In this document: positions 13,481 through 35,663 of the stretch, piece after piece
Layout: every line of letters begins with the position of its first letter
Position numbering within the stretch: the first letter of the stretch is position 1
Assembly: GCA_001776505.1 (NCBI GenBank)
Contig: MFBV01000014.1
Coordinates: forward strand, 33,774-74,114
Reading direction: 5' to 3'
Source of the DNA: Candidatus Curtissbacteria bacterium RIFCSPLOWO2_02_FULL_40_11
Lineage (GTDB): Bacteria > Patescibacteriota > Microgenomatia > Curtissbacterales > GWA2-41-24
DNA length: 40,341 bases
Made by a program: the position numbers and the translations under genes
The notes under the pieces: generated by a model
Told to the model about the DNA's origin: nothing
The model's input: only the letters and a program-made list of their open reading frames with translations
The model's database searches: none

Positions 13481-13514
13481 AGAAAGTTATTCTGATTCTG
13501 AACCCAAAAAGTTC
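13481..13514. repeat. island repeat, copy B (AGAAAGTTATTCTGATTCTGAACCCAAAAAGTTC)
   Basis: Core GAACCCAAAAAGTTC at 13500-13514. Confidence 0.85.
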
Positions 13515-13646
13515 ATCTCGCTACGCTCGATGTAAACTCCTTCGAAAACTCAGGATAAATAACAGCGTCGATTTTTTGACATGACTATATTGCTTTTGGT
13601 AATATAACTTTAATCACTAGGGAGAATACGACCATATGACTGCGTG

Positions 13647-14222
13647 TCATATTGCGACGCCTCCCGTTTTTATTGGTCTAAATTCAAGAGTCTCTTTCTC
13701 TCTATATAGAAATATTTTGTGCTTTTGGTACCCCTTTAGTAAACTTGACTCAGAATGGCGATTGGGAATGATAATTTTGAACAACTTGTCCTTTTTTTCA
13801 AGAAATTCGTACAGGCAATAGAAATCCCCGTCACCTGAAACAATTACCGCTTTGTCATAATTATTATATTCTATTGCAGCCGCATAAAGCACCAATTCGG
13901 CATCTACATTACCTTTTGGCTTACCCTCCCTATTTTTAGTAGTTGGTTTATAAACTAGATTGTAACCACATGATTTTAGATATTTGTACAGTTTTTCATT
14001 TTGCTTCATGTAGCCAATAAACAAAAGTGCTTTAGACACACGGTATTTGTCCGATAAATACTTTCTGAATTTTTTATAGTCCAGTTTCCAACCTCTGTAG
14101 ACTCGTTTCCTGCCCTTATAAATATCTTTGCTGGTACCAAGATTGAGATTTTGGCTGTCGATAAAAGCATAAACCAGCGGATATTTACTTCTTGATGTTT
14201 TTCTCGTTTTCATATTCATAAA
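13647..14222 (-). CDS. NYN/LabA-like (PIN-like) putative RNase
   Basis: YAFIDSQNLNLG..AELVLYAAAIEYNNYDKAVIVSGDGDFYCLYEFL; ORF-track start 14231 overlaps a probable -10 (TAAAAT), so a start near 14213-14219 is likely. Confidence 0.8.
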   Translation of the reverse strand, partial: FMNMKTRKTSRSKYPLVYAFIDSQNLNLGTSKDIYKGRKRVYRGWKLDYKKFRKYLSDKYRVSKALLFIGYMKQNEKLYKYLKSCGYNLVYKPTTKNREGKPKGNVDAELVLYAAAIEYNNYDKAVIVSGDGDFYCLYEFLEKKDKLFKIIIPNRHSESSLLKGYQKHKIFLYREKETLEFRPIKTGGVAI

Positions 14223-14252
14223 TTTTATCATAGAAGAAATATGCAGAATTAC

Positions 14253-14286
14253 AGAAAGTTATTTTGTTTTTGAACCCAAAAGGTTC
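14253..14286. repeat. island repeat, copy C (AGAAAGTTATTTTGTTTTTGAACCCAAAAGGTTC)
   Basis: Core GAACCCAAAAGGTTC at 14272-14286 is a 5-bp-arm palindrome. Confidence 0.85.
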
Positions 14287-14325
14287 TAACATCGCCTACA
14301 CTTCAACCTTGTTCAGTGCTATAGC

Positions 14326-14376
14326 GTGTCGGCACTCTAGCCTATAGTTGATAAATTCTTCATCTCGTGCTAAAAT
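14326..14376 (+). promoter_or_regulatory. GTGTCGGCAC + CCTATAG box + TTGATA-N17-TAAAAT promoter
   Basis: GTGTCGGCAC 14326-14335, CCTATAG 14341-14347, TTGATA 14348-14353, TAAAAT 14371-14376, ATG at 14385. Confidence 0.75.
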
Positions 14377-14384
14377 CATTCGAA

Positions 14385-14813
14385 ATGAGTACAGAAGCAC
14401 CAGCTACGCAAGAAAGAACTATCATAGAAGTGGAATACGGTAAAAGGACGTGGGGGTTCCACAGAGAGCCGGAGATGTCTATGCACGAATGGGGATATGT
14501 AACGGTAGACTGGCCTTTGACCGTCGAGCATCCTGTCGTTGTCTATTACAAGCAAGGAGAAACCTCCAAAACTCCTCACACATTGGAAATCCAAAACGCT
14601 TTCAGCGAATGGGAAGTAGGTAATACAAACACTCCACAGATAAAAGGTAACAAGAACGCAATTATTCCCGTATGGTCGGAAGAGTTGAACCCTGAAACGG
14701 GAGAGCTGACGATAAGCAGCAAGAGCGTTAACCAAGCTATAATTGATTTAGTTGTAAAAGCTAAACCTGTACTTATTGAAAACCCTTCAATGGAAGAACT
14801 AGGCCTTAAATAA
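14385..14813 (+). CDS. hypothetical protein
   Basis: MSTEAPATQERTIIEVEYGKRTW..; ORF-track start 14367 would overlap the -10 box. Confidence 0.75.
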   Translation: MSTEAPATQERTIIEVEYGKRTWGFHREPEMSMHEWGYVTVDWPLTVEHPVVVYYKQGETSKTPHTLEIQNAFSEWEVGNTNTPQIKGNKNAIIPVWSEELNPETGELTISSKSVNQAIIDLVVKAKPVLIENPSMEELGLK

Positions 14814-14818
14814 TTTTT

Positions 14819-14833
14819 GAACCCAAAAAGTTC
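14819..14833. repeat. island repeat, copy D (GAACCCAAAAAGTTC)
   Basis: Exact match to copies B, F and G core. Confidence 0.85.
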
Positions 14834-14846
14834 TAACTTCATCTAC

Positions 14847-14897
14847 GTGTCGGCACACAGACCTATAGTTGAGAAAGTCTCCTTTTTCTGATATAAT
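14847..14897 (+). promoter_or_regulatory. GTGTCGGCAC + ACCTATAG box + TTGAGA-N17-TATAAT promoter
   Basis: GTGTCGGCAC 14847-14856, ACCTATAG 14861-14868, TTGAGA 14869-14874, TATAAT 14892-14897, ATG at 14911. Confidence 0.8.
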
Positions 14898-14910
14898 TTC
14901 GTCCCTAATC

Positions 14911-15495
14911 ATGTCAAAAGAAAGATTTACAGACTGGGCACGGATTAAACCGGAAAACTACCGACCCAAGGTTGAAAATGGAGTGATAGTCGAAATAGGC
15001 CCCGGTATTGTTAATGCGCCTAAAATCTCAGAAACACTTTTAAGAAGAATCAAGTATGGGGCAGTATATATAGGCATCGATTACTTCGCTGATGAATTGC
15101 ATCGTGATTCATTCGACGTTGGTGAGCTCGTTGTGGGCGATTTAATAGATCTTCCTATTTCTTCGGGGCTAGTCGAGCAAATATGGATGATGAATGTATT
15201 TAGCGACGGAGACCATAAACGGAGAAGCGTCCAATACACAGACTCGCAACTGTATGAGCACTTCTTCAACGAACTGGCGAGGGTCTTAAAAACTGATGGC
15301 ACTGTAATTATCTGCGACTATTATGGTGATACGGTCCCTATAGGCTGGCTTAGAACAAAAGATTACAGTCGCTTTGGCTTTAAAATGCGATCCTACTCTA
15401 GAGGAACAGCATATCAATTTATCGAAAAGCATGGAATAACTCCTCAAGTATCAGACGATGACCCGTTCTTTATCACACTAACAAAGGTGAGATAG
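14911..15495 (+). CDS. class I SAM-dependent methyltransferase-like protein
   Basis: VIVEIGPGIVNAPKI..YIGIDYFADEL..VGDLIDLP..FFNELARVLKTDGTVIICDYYGD; the 14869 start is the -35 TTG. Confidence 0.7.
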   Translation: MSKERFTDWARIKPENYRPKVENGVIVEIGPGIVNAPKISETLLRRIKYGAVYIGIDYFADELHRDSFDVGELVVGDLIDLPISSGLVEQIWMMNVFSDGDHKRRSVQYTDSQLYEHFFNELARVLKTDGTVIICDYYGDTVPIGWLRTKDYSRFGFKMRSYSRGTAYQFIEKHGITPQVSDDDPFFITLTKVR

Positions 15496-15504
15496 TTTTA
15501 TTTC

Positions 15505-15599
15505 AAACCCAAAAAGTTCACGCACTTCGCATAAAGCTACGAGCGGCAAGTCCTTCGAATTCGTTTACACTGAGTACTATCGAAGTGCTCAGGACGAGT
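15505..15599. repeat. island repeat copy E with REP-like element
   Basis: AAACCCAAAAAGTTC..CGCACTTCGCATAAAGCTACGAGCG..CCTTCGAATTCGTTTACACTGAGTACTATCGAAGTGCTCAGGA, near-identical to 17334-17428. Confidence 0.9.
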
Positions 15600-15668
15600 A
15601 ACCATTCGACAGGCTCATGGTCTTCGACATCGTCTACAGATTTTGCATTTTGAGATTTATTGTGATAG

Positions 15669-15768
15669 TATAATGTATAACAAGTTGATGATGACAAAGG
15701 CCCGTGTTGGCCGAGTCCGAAAGGGCTATTCATCTAACTGACCTCACCTTAGGGTGGGGTTTTCTTTT
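15669..15768 (+). ncRNA. short transcription unit: sRNA or micropeptide mRNA with its own terminator
   Basis: TATAAT at 15669-15674, complementary GTTGATGA/TCATCTAAC segments, and terminator hairpin + T tract at 15742-15768. Confidence 0.45.
15742..15768 (+). terminator. intrinsic terminator
   Basis: CCTCACC-TTAG-GGTGGGG followed by TTTTCTTTT. Confidence 0.8.
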
Positions 15769-16324
15769 AGGTAAGAATAAATTGAGAAGATAGCTTTTTA
15801 TCTTTTTGGAACTTATTGAACCATTTTTTGGCATCTTTTCTGTCGGGATTGTCAAAGTAATATCTCACAAGACCAGCAAGCGCATCAGCTAACTGTAACC
15901 CGATCGGAGCACTTCCTTTTCGCACTGTTCTTAATTTTTTAACAGAAATTCTTTTATCACGAAGCACTTTCTTTAATCTCCTTTCGTACCATTTGGGCTT
16001 TTTGCCATCGATATAAATACTTGTGATTTTACCTTCGGTAATTAAATGTTGAAATACGGTTTCAGTCATTTCATGAGTTTTAACAGGATTTTTAAAAATA
16101 CCAATCTTAAAAGTAAAGCTTAAATCATTAACTTGCTCCAAGAATTTATTTCTTACTTTCCAGCCATGATCAGCCCAATGAAAAGTTTTTAAATCTAACT
16201 TATTAAGCAGCTTAAGCATTTTGTTTTCAAAAGTTTCGAGATTTTTTACTTCTACATAGACAAGTGCATTGCTTGCATGATCGGATTGTTTGTGAGTACC
16301 AGATTCATCAATAAAAATTACCAT
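15767..16324 (-). CDS. DUF3800 domain protein
   Basis: MVIFIDESGTHK..; C-terminal LQLADALAGLVRYYFD. Confidence 0.85.
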   Translation of the reverse strand: MVIFIDESGTHKQSDHASNALVYVEVKNLETFENKMLKLLNKLDLKTFHWADHGWKVRNKFLEQVNDLSFTFKIGIFKNPVKTHEMTETVFQHLITEGKITSIYIDGKKPKWYERRLKKVLRDKRISVKKLRTVRKGSAPIGLQLADALAGLVRYYFDNPDRKDAKKWFNKFQKDKKLSSQFILT

Positions 16325-16359
16325 AATCCCAATTTTACACTAAACAATAGCTTAATTCT

Positions 16360-16374
16360 GAACCCAAAAAGTTC
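16360..16374. repeat. island repeat, copy F (GAACCCAAAAAGTTC)
   Basis: Exact core match, followed by TCTCGCTACGCTCGATGTAAAC as in copy B. Confidence 0.85.
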
Positions 16375-16434
16375 GTCTCGCTACGCTCGATGTAAACTAA
16401 CATCGTTCATCCTGAGTCTTACCGAAGGGTCTAC

Positions 16435-16489
16435 GTGTCGGCACAAAACTAAACCGATAGTAGTAAAATCGCTTCAAATTTAGTATAAT
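16435..16489 (+). promoter_or_regulatory. GTGTCGGCAC + ACCGATAG box + TAGTAA-N17-TATAAT promoter
   Basis: GTGTCGGCAC 16435-16444, ACCGATAG 16453-16460, TATAAT 16484-16489, ATG at 16498. Confidence 0.7.
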
Positions 16490-16497
16490 TCTCACCT

Positions 16498-17295
16498 ATG
16501 CAATTCGGTGGATCAGAAAGACAACCTAGTTCTGAACGGAAACTATTTGTTACCCAAAGACTCGTCGTTAAAATCGGTAGCAACGTTATCACTGAGGGAG
16601 CTACAAAAGAGAAACCCTTAAATGCAGAATTTATTGATAATGTTGCCAGACAATGCAGTGAGCTATTCAAAAGCAGTGTAGAAGTTGTAATCGTTAGTTC
16701 AGGAGCAGTTGCCAGTGGCCGCAATCTGCTGCATATTGAAGAACACGATATTAGAGATAAACAAGTTGAGGCAGTCTTCGGACAACCCACCTTAATAGGA
16801 ACGTGGGTAGAGGCATTTAAGAAATTTGGAGTGGTGGCTGGACAAGCTCTTATTACTGAAAACGACCTCGAGGAAGGAAAAAACGTTCTGCGTAAATCTC
16901 TCAAACACGGTGTTGTCATCGTCAACTGGAACGATGCAGTTAACAGTGATGAGATGAGAGCATTTATGCGTCTTGCGGATAACGATCACGGTGCCGCAGA
17001 AGTCGCGGAAGCAATAGATGCTGATACTCTACTGTTAGTAACCGATGTAGAAGGTGTAATCGATGCAAAGGGCCAACTCATTGAAGACGGTTCGCAAATC
17101 AACGATGATGACATCTTCTTTGAGGGTTCCGATAAAGGAACTGGTGGAATGGTGACAAAAGTTAAAGTTCTTAAAGATTTAGCTCAAAAGGGAATACAAG
17201 GAATTATTACGGGTACAAAACAGCAAGACTTTATTCTCAAGGTTGCCAAAGGGAATACTGGAGGACGTACCAGTTTTCAATCAAACCGAAACTAA
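16498..17295 (+). CDS. glutamate 5-kinase-like amino acid kinase
   Basis: LVVKIGSNVITEG..VEVVIVSSGAVASGR..LITENDLEEGKNVL..ADTLLLVTDVEGV..GTGGMVTKV; no PUA domain. Confidence 0.8.
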   Translation: MQFGGSERQPSSERKLFVTQRLVVKIGSNVITEGATKEKPLNAEFIDNVARQCSELFKSSVEVVIVSSGAVASGRNLLHIEEHDIRDKQVEAVFGQPTLIGTWVEAFKKFGVVAGQALITENDLEEGKNVLRKSLKHGVVIVNWNDAVNSDEMRAFMRLADNDHGAAEVAEAIDADTLLLVTDVEGVIDAKGQLIEDGSQINDDDIFFEGSDKGTGGMVTKVKVLKDLAQKGIQGIITGTKQQDFILKVAKGNTGGRTSFQSNRN

Positions 17296-17333
17296 TCCAG
17301 AACATCAAGATTAAGCAAACTTAAATTGACCCT

Positions 17334-17428
17334 GAACCCAAAAAGTTCTCGCACTTCGCATAAAGCTACGAGCGACAACTCCTTCGAATTCGTTTACACT
17401 GAGTACTATCGAAGTGCTCAGGATAAGT
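17334..17428. repeat. island repeat copy G with REP-like element
   Basis: Near-identical to 15505-15599; GTGTCGGCAC follows at 17502-17511. Confidence 0.9.
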
Positions 17429-17640
17429 CCAACTTCACTATATTCTTCGCTAAAAGCTACGAATATCAAGAAAGTTTCGTCGGACAAGTAACATCGTTTA
17501 GGTGTCGGCACGTGAATTTCTAAGCCCTAGACCCTAAACCCTAATCCCTAACTTCAGCCTCATTTTAGGTTGCATGGCCAAGTGATCTTCTGGTAAAATC
17601 AGGTAATGGATTTTCGTATACTTTAAGAGTATGAAATTAA

Positions 17641-29663: not shown

Positions 29664-30551
29664 TTTTATTTTAGCCTCAACAAGCCGCTTATTTGCGATT
29701 TAAAGGCTTTTTACACCTTTAGTTGTATTGTCCAATCATTTAAAATCTATATTTTGTGAAATCCGCAACAAAAATAAGCAAAAAAAGTCTATCTGTTAAC
29801 AATGGGGGAGAAGTGTATCAAAATTAGTCAAGTTAAAAGTTAAAAAGTAAAAGTCAAAAGTTAAAAAAACCCAAAATAACAAACACTAGAAATTAGAAAT
29901 TTGAAATTTGAAATTTACCCATACCTCCTCTTTCAACCATGATATACGTCGCAAAAGTATCATTGTGCGACGCATTACAAATAGGAAATATATATGTCTT
30001 GTCTCAAAGGGAATAAGAGAGTTTATTGGGAAAGATTAATTTGAAATTAGATATTAGAAATTAGAAATTTACTTCTATTTGACCCCTTCCCCAAAAGACC
30101 CCGAAATCGACTTTTTGGTTGCAATATTAGCACCTTATAGTAATTACCGCTAACTCCTTACATATAGCTGCGCAGAGAACTGGACACCTTTTTTATCCTC
30201 CACAAAGATGTCTATAGATGTTTATACTTGCTCATCTGAACCCAAATCATTAACATTTGAATTTTCTACAAATTTTTCACACTAATTTTCACGATTACTA
30301 TAACTATTTCAAACTATATCATCCTTCGGCTTCGTTTACACTGAGTTCAATCGAAGTGCTCAGGACAAGCCTCTCTCCTCTATTCCCTCTACTTTCCCTT
30401 TTTTCTCAAAATTTTCTGAAGCTAATATGAAGCTAAGTAAAATGTGAATAGTGAATTGTAAATTGTAAATAGTAGACAAATTTACCACTTCTGTCTCAAT
30501 TACTATGGGCTTTAAGGATCTATTTCCCATTGACTATTTTCTATTTACCCG

Positions 30552-32006: not shown

Positions 32007-32750
32007 CTATTTTCTCGGCCTTGGCCCATCGTATTCCACTTCCTTTTCCGTAAGTCTCCTGACCGGCTTTTCGCGCAAACTCTCCTCAACTACATGAGCT
32101 ACAAGCCCCGGTACTCGGGCAATTATAAAAAATCCTTTGCCGCTTTTGGGGTGAAAACCCATCTCAAGAAGTAGCGCTGCGAATATCCCATCGATATTAA
32201 GAGGTAATTTCTTAGATCCAACTGTTAATTCTTTTTCTACTTCAAGTGCAAACTTCACATACTTGCCGTAAAACCCTAATTCCTTTGCAAGCTCAATTAA
32301 CCTTTCAGTTCTTGGATCCGTACTATATACCCGATGCCCAAAACCGCTCACTCGCTTTCCTTTTTTCTTAAAATCTTCATTCAGTTTTTTAGCTCCCTCG
32401 CTTTCGTATTTTTTAAAAGTATTCATACTCTCCTCTATCGCTCCGCCATGATATTCACCAAATGCCAAAACACCCGCAGCAACCGCCGCCTGAAGCGGCG
32501 AACCACCGGAATAAACGTTTCTGGCAGCAACTGTAGAACTTGGCTCGACACCATGATCGATAGCAATTGTCAGCATACCATCTAGCATCTTCTCACTGTT
32601 TTTATCCGGCATCTCGCCTTTCAAAATTAAATAAATAACCGCTGTAAACGACTTATTCCCGGCAAGTTTTGTTAAATCGTACCCATATACGTGAGGCTTG
32701 CCGTCAACATGATGAGTAATTGAAGTTCTGTAAGGTTTAGTCATCTTCAA
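32007..32750 (-). CDS. citrate synthase-fold protein, citryl-CoA lyase-like
   Basis: RTSITHHVDGKPHVYGYDL, GEYHGGAIEE, GFGHRVYSTDPRT, PLNIDGIFAALLLEMGF; short like citryl-CoA lyase. Confidence 0.8.
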   Translation of the reverse strand: MKMTKPYRTSITHHVDGKPHVYGYDLTKLAGNKSFTAVIYLILKGEMPDKNSEKMLDGMLTIAIDHGVEPSSTVAARNVYSGGSPLQAAVAAGVLAFGEYHGGAIEESMNTFKKYESEGAKKLNEDFKKKGKRVSGFGHRVYSTDPRTERLIELAKELGFYGKYVKFALEVEKELTVGSKKLPLNIDGIFAALLLEMGFHPKSGKGFFIIARVPGLVAHVVEESLREKPVRRLTEKEVEYDGPRPRK

Positions 32751-32958
32751 AAGTATGTATTACGGGATGACCACGTAAAAGTAAATAGCCTTCTCTTACT
32801 CTAGCAAGACCTTTTCTCCTTCTTTTAATAACCTTGGCTTCTTGAAGGGCTCTTCTTACCTTATCCTTCCCACCAAGAAATTCAACCAGTTCTTCTAATG
32901 ATTGTCCAGGATCATTTTCCCTAGAACTATCCAGTGAACCCCTAAACCTTTCTTCCAT
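32737..32958 (-). CDS. small hypothetical protein (73 aa) within the citrate cluster
   Basis: Overlaps downstream citryl-CoA lyase-like start by 14 nt; basic, helix-rich. Confidence 0.6.
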   Translation of the reverse strand: MEERFRGSLDSSRENDPGQSLEELVEFLGGKDKVRRALQEAKVIKRRRKGLARVREGYLLLRGHPVIHTFEDD

Positions 32959-32982
32959 AGTGATAATTATAGCAAACCTAAT

Positions 32983-33918
32983 TTAGATTTTTTGTTTAAT
33001 TAATCTCGGTATATCCTCAAAATGCTTGGCAACAATTGCACCGGAATCCTTCAAAATCTTGGTCTTTTCTTCCATTGTTGCCTCCAGGCCCACAATAGCT
33101 CCGGCATGCCCTAAACTTGTATCTTTTGGCAATTTTTCCGCAAATTTTCCTGCCAGATAAATAATGAAAGGCTTAGTAAATTCTCCTTCACGAATTAACT
33201 TTGCAACTTCAACCTCTGCACTGCCTCCTACTTCGCCGAACGCCACAACTGCTTTTGTGCTTGTATCACTCTCAAATTCTTTTAATAAATCCCCAAATGT
33301 TATCCCAACCAGTAAATCCCCGCCAATTCCAACAACTGTCGACTGCCCAAATCCGCTTTCTGTAATCAACATTGCAAGTTCGCTGCACATACCGCCGGAT
33401 TTTGAAATTACCCCAACAGGTCCTTTGCTAAAAACTTTATCCGGGTTTGCCCCGCCGATTGAACCGATCTTTCCTTCACCTGGGCTTATTGCCCCGACAG
33501 AAGCTGGCCCCAAAACTTGAACATTTTTTTCTTTTGCCCGCGCTAAAATCTGCGCCACATCAAAAACCGGCACCTTTTCTACAAATATGTGAACTAGCGG
33601 CACTTCTGCCTGCCCGCTTGCCGAGCCGCGCGAGGCGGCCAGGGCCTCAATTGCTTCCATTGCCGCATCACGAGCCATTAAAGGCGGTACATAAACCATC
33701 GAAACATCAATTGGCCCAACCTCTTCTATCGCCTCGCGTACTGAGTTAAATACCGGCACCGTGTCAACTTCCTGCCCGCCTTTGCCGGGTGTAACACCGG
33801 AAACTACCTTCACCCCATAATCAAGCAGTTCAGAGGTTACAGGAACACCACTTCTGCCAGTTATCCCCTGAATTAAAATCCTTGTTTCCTTGTTTACTAA
33901 TATCGACATACTTGACAA
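32983..33918 (-). CDS. acyl-CoA synthetase (NDP-forming) alpha subunit, SucD/ATP-citrate-lyase-like
   Basis: TRILIQGITGRSG, VLGPASVGAISPGEGKIGSIGG, ISKSGGMCSELA, LGHAGA phosphohistidine motif. Confidence 0.88.
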   Translation of the reverse strand: MSSMSILVNKETRILIQGITGRSGVPVTSELLDYGVKVVSGVTPGKGGQEVDTVPVFNSVREAIEEVGPIDVSMVYVPPLMARDAAMEAIEALAASRGSASGQAEVPLVHIFVEKVPVFDVAQILARAKEKNVQVLGPASVGAISPGEGKIGSIGGANPDKVFSKGPVGVISKSGGMCSELAMLITESGFGQSTVVGIGGDLLVGITFGDLLKEFESDTSTKAVVAFGEVGGSAEVEVAKLIREGEFTKPFIIYLAGKFAEKLPKDTSLGHAGAIVGLEATMEEKTKILKDSGAIVAKHFEDIPRLIKQKI

Positions 33919-33967
33919 CGCAACCTAATTGATTATTCTACTTTAATGATTTAAATCATTAAAGTAT

Positions 33968-35194
33968 TTAGATATGAGATCTCATATTTTTATATCCGTC
34001 TGATAATTCAACCATTTTTTTACAAGCCACCGAAATCGGTGTTTCCGGTCCAAACAAATGAATGTCGAACCCTTCTTTTTTTGCAAATTTAGTAAGCATT
34101 TTGTACGCTTCTTTTTGCCTTGGGCCACCACGTCTAATTACGATTGGATAATTTGGTTTCGGACGAACCTGCTTCAACCCCTCGACAAATCCACTCAAAG
34201 TTTCGAAAATATCCGTAAAATTGGCAACAGCACCGGCAACCAAACAACCGTTAAGTCCTTTTTTATCGAGTGTAATTTTAGTTAGCTTCTCAACTTTTTC
34301 GCGTGGCGGATTACCGCTGTACTCTGTATAATTTGCACATCTTCCGCCTGCCGCCACTACACTGTCCATTATCATTAAGCTTGCCCCACCGCCGGATGCA
34401 AGTATCGCAATGTCACCCGCTTCGCCGCGAGGCGAGCCGTCAAATTCAATAAAAGTTGAGCCGGCACTCCCCCTATAATCTTCTTCATCAATTTTGCGCG
34501 CATCAATTTCTCTTTTTGTAGGAATCGCCCCTGCCGCACCCTTTGGAATTACATCCAAGCTTTTCTGGCGTACCAAACCATTCCCATCCAAAATTACTTT
34601 TGCATCAATCGCCACATAGCCACTTTGTACTTTTGCAATTGGATTAACCTCAACCAAACGACAATCGTAGCGCCAAAATGCATCCCACAACCGCATCAAA
34701 AAATCCACAAGTGTTTCATCCTTGCCAATAATTTTCTTGAGATTTCTTTCTTTAAGCCCCTCGAGCGGATTAATTTCGTACTTAATTAATTCTTCGGGAT
34801 CTTTTTTTTCAACCTCTTCTATATCTATTCCACCTTTTTTAGAAAAAAGCAAAAACGGTTGCTTGGAGCAAGTATCATAGGTAATTGAAGCATAATATTC
34901 CTCTTCGATTCTCACCCATTGTGCCAGGTTTATGTAAATAACTTTCTCGTCTTCAAAATCATTCCCCAGCATTTCATTGCAAAATTCAACTAACTTTTTT
35001 TCGGATTTAAAAATTTTAACCCCCCCGCCTTTGCCACGCTTGCCGGAAAGAACTTGCACCTTCGCTACAATTGGAAACTTTAGGCGTTTTTTAGCTTCTT
35101 TTACTTCTTCACTATTTGCACACGTAACAAAAAACGGGCTTGCTATTCCCGCCTTGGCAAGAATTTTATGACCTTCAAATTCATAGAGTTTCAT
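33968..35194 (-). CDS. ATP-grasp acyl-CoA synthetase beta subunit, ATP-citrate-lyase-like
   Basis: LYEFEGHKILAKAGI, VEVNPIA, GGGASLMIMDSVV, ANYTEYSGNP, VANFTDIFETLSGF, VIRRGGPRQ, IHLFGPET. Confidence 0.85.
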   Translation of the reverse strand: MKLYEFEGHKILAKAGIASPFFVTCANSEEVKEAKKRLKFPIVAKVQVLSGKRGKGGGVKIFKSEKKLVEFCNEMLGNDFEDEKVIYINLAQWVRIEEEYYASITYDTCSKQPFLLFSKKGGIDIEEVEKKDPEELIKYEINPLEGLKERNLKKIIGKDETLVDFLMRLWDAFWRYDCRLVEVNPIAKVQSGYVAIDAKVILDGNGLVRQKSLDVIPKGAAGAIPTKREIDARKIDEEDYRGSAGSTFIEFDGSPRGEAGDIAILASGGGASLMIMDSVVAAGGRCANYTEYSGNPPREKVEKLTKITLDKKGLNGCLVAGAVANFTDIFETLSGFVEGLKQVRPKPNYPIVIRRGGPRQKEAYKMLTKFAKKEGFDIHLFGPETPISVACKKMVELSDGYKNMRSHI

Positions 35195-35237: not shown

Positions 35238-35663
35238 ATGGAAATTGTTAAGGCTGAAGAGGCAGATATAAAGGATATTTTAGCCCTGCAGGCTCAAATA
35301 TACCGTATTGACAACCTAGCCTCAAATTCAGAAGAATCTCTAAAAAAACAGCTTGCAGACGATTGCTGCGATATACTTGTTGCTAAGAACGAAAACAAAA
35401 TCGTTGGTACAGCCACGATTTATTACATTCAGGTTGCCGCTCACGGTAAACCATACGCTCTACTTGAAGGTCTTGTTGTTAACAAAAACCAAAGAGAACA
35501 CGGAATCGGAACAAAATTATTTACAAGATGCGTAGAAATTGCGCAGAAAAAAGGCTGTTACAAAATGATATTCACTTCAGGAAACGATCGCAAAGAGATC
35601 CATACATTCTACGAAAAACTAGGTTTTAAAAAATGGGGTTTGGAATTTCGAAAAGATCTCTAG
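35238..35663 (+). CDS. GNAT family N-acetyltransferase
   Basis: ALLEGLVVNKNQREHGIGTKLFTRCVEIAQKKGCYKMIFTSG..FYEKLGFKKWG. Confidence 0.92.
   Translation: MEIVKAEEADIKDILALQAQIYRIDNLASNSEESLKKQLADDCCDILVAKNENKIVGTATIYYIQVAAHGKPYALLEGLVVNKNQREHGIGTKLFTRCVEIAQKKGCYKMIFTSGNDRKEIHTFYEKLGFKKWGLEFRKDL

Follow-up and report, generated by a model that had tools for sequence, protein, structure and literature searches.

A putative citryl-CoA-type citrate-cleaving gene trio of Curtissbacteria and its amino-sugar neighbourhood

Background

Citryl-CoA synthetase (CCS) and citryl-CoA lyase (CCL) were described from the Aquificaceae, which fix CO2 by the reductive tricarboxylic acid (TCA) cycle (PMC3665934). 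ATP-citrate lyase (ACL) has been called rare in bacteria of the candidate phyla radiation (CPR), where it was reported for a gracilibacterium (PMC6851277), and it has also been reported for metagenome-assembled genomes of Saccharimonadia (PMC12577380). A literature search, which lacked most subscription papers, found none that connects citryl-CoA enzymes or ACL with the synthesis of amino sugars in CPR. Here, I describe a stretch of 40,341 nucleotides (the window) from Candidatus Curtissbacteria bacterium RIFCSPLOWO2_02_FULL_40_11 (GCA_001776505.1, contig MFBV01000014.1, positions 33,774 to 74,114), in which a beta-like subunit, an alpha-like subunit and a citryl-CoA-lyase-like protein, hereafter the trio, are encoded by separate genes. 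Judged by relatives and neighbouring genes, the trio is fairly likely to be a citrate-cleaving enzyme of the CCS/CCL type, its acetyl-CoA serving mainly the N-acetylation of amino sugars. The new point is its proposed function: amino-sugar genes lie beside the trio in many carriers, a physiological context missed by an earlier, sequence-only reading of the window.

Results

Nearest relatives and subunit partition

The four open reading frames (ORFs) of the cluster, that is the trio and a 73-aa ORF between alpha and lyase, lie on the minus strand where the sequence-only reading had placed them (Table 1), and every motif it quoted is in frame: ANYTEYSG, ANFT and RRGGP in beta, GHAGA in alpha, GHRV and NIDG in the lyase. 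These motifs are not due to chance, because beta matches the Pfam families ATP-grasp_2 (1e-42) and, above cut-off, Citrate_bind (3.7e-27), and the lyase matches NF004869, the NCBIfam model for citryl-CoA lyases, at 1.7e-85, likewise above cut-off. Alpha has the three SucD-type Pfam domains CoA_binding, Ligase_CoA and Succ_CoA_lig, GHAGA being its phosphohistidine motif. The possibility that beta is a SucC was discarded on account of its Citrate_bind domain, its ANFT and RRGGP motifs and its score against the NCBIfam sucC model (198, below the cut-off of 370).

Among solved structures, beta is nearest to Hydrogenobacter CcsA (6hxq_B, 7e-56) and next to Chlorobium AclB (6hxj, 5e-41), and the lyase to Hydrogenobacter Ccl (6hxp_A, 6e-68), while alpha matches an archaeal SucD (5e-70) ahead of CcsB (6hxq_A, 4e-49) and AclA (1e-33). 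On the strength of these relatives, the arrangement is that of CCS and CCL on three polypeptides. The resemblance to CCS plus CCL noted in the sequence-only reading is thus borne out, the subunit partition being the same and the best matches being CcsA and Ccl, but its claim of a different partition is not: beta, alpha and lyase correspond exactly to CcsA, CcsB and Ccl, the small ORF being the sole extra. Alpha and lyase are separate ORFs in the window, unlike in the ATP-citrate lyase subunit AclA. What survives of the proposal as a whole is a citrate-cleaving activity shared out over separate polypeptides, ordered like the ACLY domains, as argued by domains, solved relatives, residues and trees; the different partition and the inclusion of the 73-aa ORF have to be given up.

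This ORF, previously counted as an added part of the system, is missing from close relatives and not conserved. It has no match in Pfam or NCBIfam; in relatives the alpha-lyase gap is empty or holds other ORFs (YerC-like in L057 and L059, 168 aa long in L058), and it measures 15-46 nt in five Curtissbacteria-type loci. A comparison with 280 genomes of the class returned weak matches only, the best foreign one (E 8e-4) being a 115-aa ORF of L135, with no usable annotation, between NusA-like and IF2-like ORFs. The single-sequence model has a pLDDT of 69. On its absence in relatives, the weak foreign matches and the low-confidence model, it was rejected as a subunit; since it overlaps the lyase ATG by 8 nt, it could affect translation of the lyase.

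Compared with close relatives, both synthetase subunits carry in-frame G+C-rich inserts namely LAASRGSASGQAE (about 11-15 aa; window 33600-33640) in alpha and SPRGEAG (about 6-7 aa; window 34415-34445) in beta. A search for second copies of these intragenic elements found none. The lyase of L085 and L045 bears a different insert, LPAGRQG, and no repeat family for the inserts was found among the loci examined.

Distribution, catalytic residues and trees

In an even draw of 380 genomes from the phylum, Citrate_bind was found in 25, one of which (G261) has a true SucC by its motifs. Two forms occur in this draw: AclB is paired with a fused AclA (about 600 aa) in 12 genomes, and 11 genomes carry the split trio; in a twelfth split carrier (G082), the contig ends after alpha. 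When 84,980 species genomes were searched with the beta alignment, loci being selected by patterns including ANFT and YSGN, 80 loci resulted, most of them from Patescibacteria (Curtiss-, Davies-, Woyke-, Magasanik-, Kerfeld-, Staskawicz-, Uhr- and Giovannonibacteria) and DPANN archaea; single loci labelled Heimdallarchaeota and Acidobacteriota may be mis-binned. All three genes, beta, alpha and lyase, follow one another in the same direction in 73 of the 80, the remainder lying mostly at contig ends. Two loci, L049 (G172) and L050 (G365), hold a more divergent, shortened trio, with betas of 285 aa (truncated where the contig ends) and 313 aa and lyases of 221 and 191 aa, respectively; both genomes lack a GlmS over the cut-off.

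Counterparts of human ACLY N346, T348, R378 and R379 (numbering from PMC9504748 and general knowledge), mapped by motif, are conserved across the trio loci, a result that is partly circular because the loci were picked by patterns including ANFT and YSGN. No such circularity attaches to the phosphohistidine of alpha, kept in all 75 aligned loci covering the site, to the GH(R/K) histidine and NxDG aspartate of the lyase, kept in 73 of 73, or to the equivalent of human ACLY H900, a histidine in 61 of 74 lyases. The expected active-site H, H and D are all present in the window lyase.

When SucC is omitted, the beta tree sets the split betas together with Hydrogenobacter CcsA, itself on a long branch, apart from all AclB (support 100/99). 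With SucC included, the long SucC branch lands inside the split beta group, which is probably an artefact. The window beta clusters with Curtissbacteria in the beta trees, the fused AclBA of CPR genomes forms a branch separate from the split form, and the lyase tree places Hydrogenobacter Ccl among CPR and DPANN lyases (84/91). As to whether the subunits fall inside succinyl-CoA synthetase, the outcome that was to refute the sequence-only reading, beta and lyase do not; only alpha has SucD, rather than CcsB, as its nearer relative.

Amino-sugar genes around the trio

Clustering of neighbouring ORFs at the 80 loci gave as dominant families GlmU/hexapeptide/uridylyltransferase (34 loci), GNAT (25, plus the window), GlmS (25) and YvcK (25). 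Of the 18 carriers with GlmS in the even phylum sample, 7 have it within 5 kb (expected 0.21, P 8e-10), as do 5 of 12 when counted by family (P 1e-6). A GNAT gene directly upstream and in the same direction was found in 14 loci, with gaps of -50 to 78 nt.

The layouts differ widely. Magasanikbacteria and their kin have the order HAD - GlmU-N - GlmS - (HAD) - YvcK - GNAT - beta - alpha - lyase, in which GlmU, 252 aa long, is a uridylyltransferase lacking the acetyltransferase half, and YvcK scores just under the cut-off of the model for YvcK binding UDP-N-acetylglucosamine (UDP-GlcNAc). In L046, a single run reads GlmS - beta - alpha - lyase - GNAT - YvcK - GlmU. The DPANN loci L080 and L083 have a hexapeptide acetyltransferase and GlmS upstream of beta, Daviesbacteria a full-length archaeal-type bifunctional GlmU in that place, and in Curtissbacteria beta is flanked by a divergent GNAT, as in the window, or by a hexapeptide protein. 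The surroundings of the Giovannonibacteria locus L096 are, by sequence, a pseudaminic-acid-type cluster: the trio sits amid PseC and PseI (both above cut-off), a GNAT and a cytidylyltransferase whose gene shares 4 nt with beta. Downstream of the lyase in Woykebacteria (L074) come a hexapeptide acetyltransferase and a PseC-like aminotransferase. Fused AclBA of CPR has such neighbours too, with GlmS 3 nt downstream of AclA in L037 and a GNAT just before AclB in L039. An Rfam search found no RNA control element near the trio.

Orthologues of the window GNAT hold the same position in three related loci. Its family profile matches first an uncharacterised structure (2dxq, 7e-19) and then glucosamine-6-phosphate N-acetyltransferases of the GNA1 type (3fb3, 2.6e-15; yeast, 2e-10), beside which aminoglycoside acetyltransferases also score; the structure model has a pLDDT of 95, and Foldseek ranks 1-5 are 2dxq and 3fb3/3i3g. 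The protein may act on an amino sugar.

Acetyl-CoA and TCA enzymes of the genome

The window genome measures 938 kb and encodes GlmS. Family searches of it found no pyruvate:ferredoxin oxidoreductase (PFOR; POR_N), pyruvate dehydrogenase E2, phosphotransacetylase, AMP-binding acyl-CoA synthetase or pyruvate formate-lyase (PFL), no second SucD or ADP-forming acyl-CoA ligase, and neither aconitase nor a lactate/malate dehydrogenase (LDH/MDH) N-terminal domain. No other TCA genes occur among the window ORFs scanned, in agreement with the earlier observation, and the suggested genome-wide check for citrate synthase and aconitase returned no aconitase and a single citrate-synthase domain; this domain and the only SucD-like gene of the whole genome both belong to the trio. 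Both PFOR and the AMP-binding ligase are lacking in 7 of the 12 split carriers. Across 38 genomes, an acetyl-CoA source (ACL/CCS, PFOR or PFL) goes with GlmS (23/29 versus 2/9, Fisher P 0.003), an association that is indicative only because the genomes are related. The only PFL-like gene among 38 Patescibacteria genomes lies in G208 (C1:436233-437996).

Gene coordinates and other features of the window

Table 1. Genes of the citrate-cleavage cluster and the adjoining acetyltransferase (window coordinates)
Feature	Coordinates	Strand	Remarks
Beta-like (CcsA-type) subunit	33968..35194	-	408 aa; ATP-grasp and citrate-binding domain
Alpha-like (SucD/CcsB-type) subunit	32983..33918	-	311 aa from TTG; ATG at 33909
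Citryl-CoA-lyase-like (Ccl-type) protein	32007..32750	-	247 aa from TTG; ATG at 32744; citrate-synthase C-terminal domain
73-aa ORF between alpha and lyase	32737..32958	-	No family match; probably a lineage-specific insert, not a subunit
GNAT acetyltransferase	35238..35663	+	Divergent; 43 nt from beta start; Acetyltransf_1 2.9e-17

Elsewhere in the window, an Rfam DUF3800-II RNA (15677-15743, plus strand; 64.9 bits, above the gathering score) adjoins a DUF3800 gene (15767-16324, minus strand). The stretch 13481-17441, with NYN, DUF3800 and amino-acid-kinase genes, holds dispersed repeats with the core AACCCAAAAAGTTC as well as an element of 62-94 nt (TCCTTCGAATTCGTTTACACTGAG...); one further copy lies at 30322.

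Discussion

In the proposed mechanism, beta would use ATP to phosphorylate the GHAGA histidine of alpha, and the phosphate would pass from there to citrate at the ANFT/RRGGP site of beta; CoA would then yield citryl-CoA, which the citrate-synthase-like lyase would split into acetyl-CoA and oxaloacetate. The acetyl-CoA would feed N-acetylation, carrying glucosamine phosphate to UDP-GlcNAc and, in some lineages, serving pseudaminic-acid-type sugars. Scavenged citrate probably gives the acetyl groups of cell-wall sugars, since the trio sits in operons for N-acetylated sugars in many relatives; activity, direction and citrate uptake are what I infer for the predicted enzyme system. The strongest argument is one of replacement: the acetyltransferase family differs by lineage (GNAT, hexapeptide, bifunctional GlmU), the functional theme stays.

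Several points weigh against this interpretation. Alpha is nearer to SucD than to CcsB in the PDB comparison, and in 13 of the 74 lyases an asparagine occupies the H900 position, with the other catalytic residues retained. In the window, the trio has only the divergent GNAT beside it, GlmS being on another contig, and none of the four main neighbour families is present in 21 of the 63 loci that have 3.5 kb or more upstream. The window genome is 94.8% complete. Lastly, PFOR and an AMP-binding ligase also occur in G079 and G093, of the same family, so that not every carrier has the trio as its only source of acetyl-CoA.

The loci devoid of the main sugar neighbours would suit another explanation, in which citrate is cleaved for general carbon supply, scavenged citrate giving acetyl-CoA and oxaloacetate or aspartate, and the sugar genes are incidental. 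Conversion of external citrate into acetyl-CoA and oxaloacetate has been proposed for the CPR genome with a two-subunit ACL (PMC6851277). Yet the proximity of GlmS in the even sample is far above chance and recurs in unrelated layouts, the type of acetyltransferase varies within a constant class of function, and the window genome has no aconitase or MDH-type gene for further processing of the products, all of which makes this explanation rather unlikely.

It is improbable that the trio is a CCS/CCL homologue for another acid (2-methylcitrate, citramalate, succinate and so on), or a succinyl-CoA synthetase beside an unrelated citrate-synthase-like protein. Alpha is SucD-like and sequence cannot give the substrate with certainty, but Citrate_bind and the ANFT/RRGGP motifs of beta are missing from solved SucC sequences, and the lyase is co-located in 73 of the 80 loci. 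Very improbable, finally, is reverse running, in which acetyl-CoA and oxaloacetate would give citrate and ATP for substrate-level phosphorylation or citrate export: known ATP-citrate lyases do operate near equilibrium, but no other acetyl-CoA source was recognised in the window genome and the neighbouring genes consume acetyl-CoA.

For citrate cleavage coupled to amino-sugar N-acetylation, a wider and more speculative version may be put forward tentatively: throughout Patescibacteria and DPANN archaea, the clustered unfused enzyme might be a dedicated acetyl-CoA generator for amino-sugar N-acetylation, drawing citrate from hosts or neighbours, acting as the only source in several lineages, and preserving a gene order that predates the fusion and could have given rise to two-subunit ACL and eukaryotic ACLY. 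The trio gene order is that of the ACLY domains and is relevant to the origin of ACLY. CCS/CCL relatives occur in two groups whose cells are minimal and mostly symbiotic and have no reductive TCA cycle; gene context there points to a different job. A testable answer is offered as to where CPR and DPANN cells that have neither pyruvate dehydrogenase nor PFOR might obtain acetyl-CoA for peptidoglycan and surface-glycan precursors, and the predicted dependence on citrate would be useful for cultivation.

Comparison with known systems

CcsA/CcsB and Ccl of Hydrogenobacter thermophilus (PDB 6hxq, 6hxp) share the three-polypeptide partition of the trio. Unlike there, the trio genes lie together in one direction, arranged like the domains of ACLY, with amino-sugar genes near in many carriers, the carriers lack a reductive TCA cycle, and beta has the ACLY-type ANFT and RRGGP where Hydrogenobacter CcsA has ANNT and RRNGP. 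AclA/AclB (Chlorobium 6hxj, Methanothrix 6hxi) and eukaryotic ACLY agree with the trio in domains, order and citrate-site motifs, but AclA fuses the alpha and lyase domains that the trio keeps unfused. SucCD has the fold and phosphohistidine chemistry in common with beta and alpha of the trio, whereas it has neither the citrate-binding motifs nor a lyase partner. The two-subunit ACL of the gracilibacterium is likewise a citrate-cleaving enzyme of CPR, from a genome that lacks a TCA cycle; unlike the trio, however, it is of the fused type and was not linked to amino-sugar synthesis (PMC6851277).

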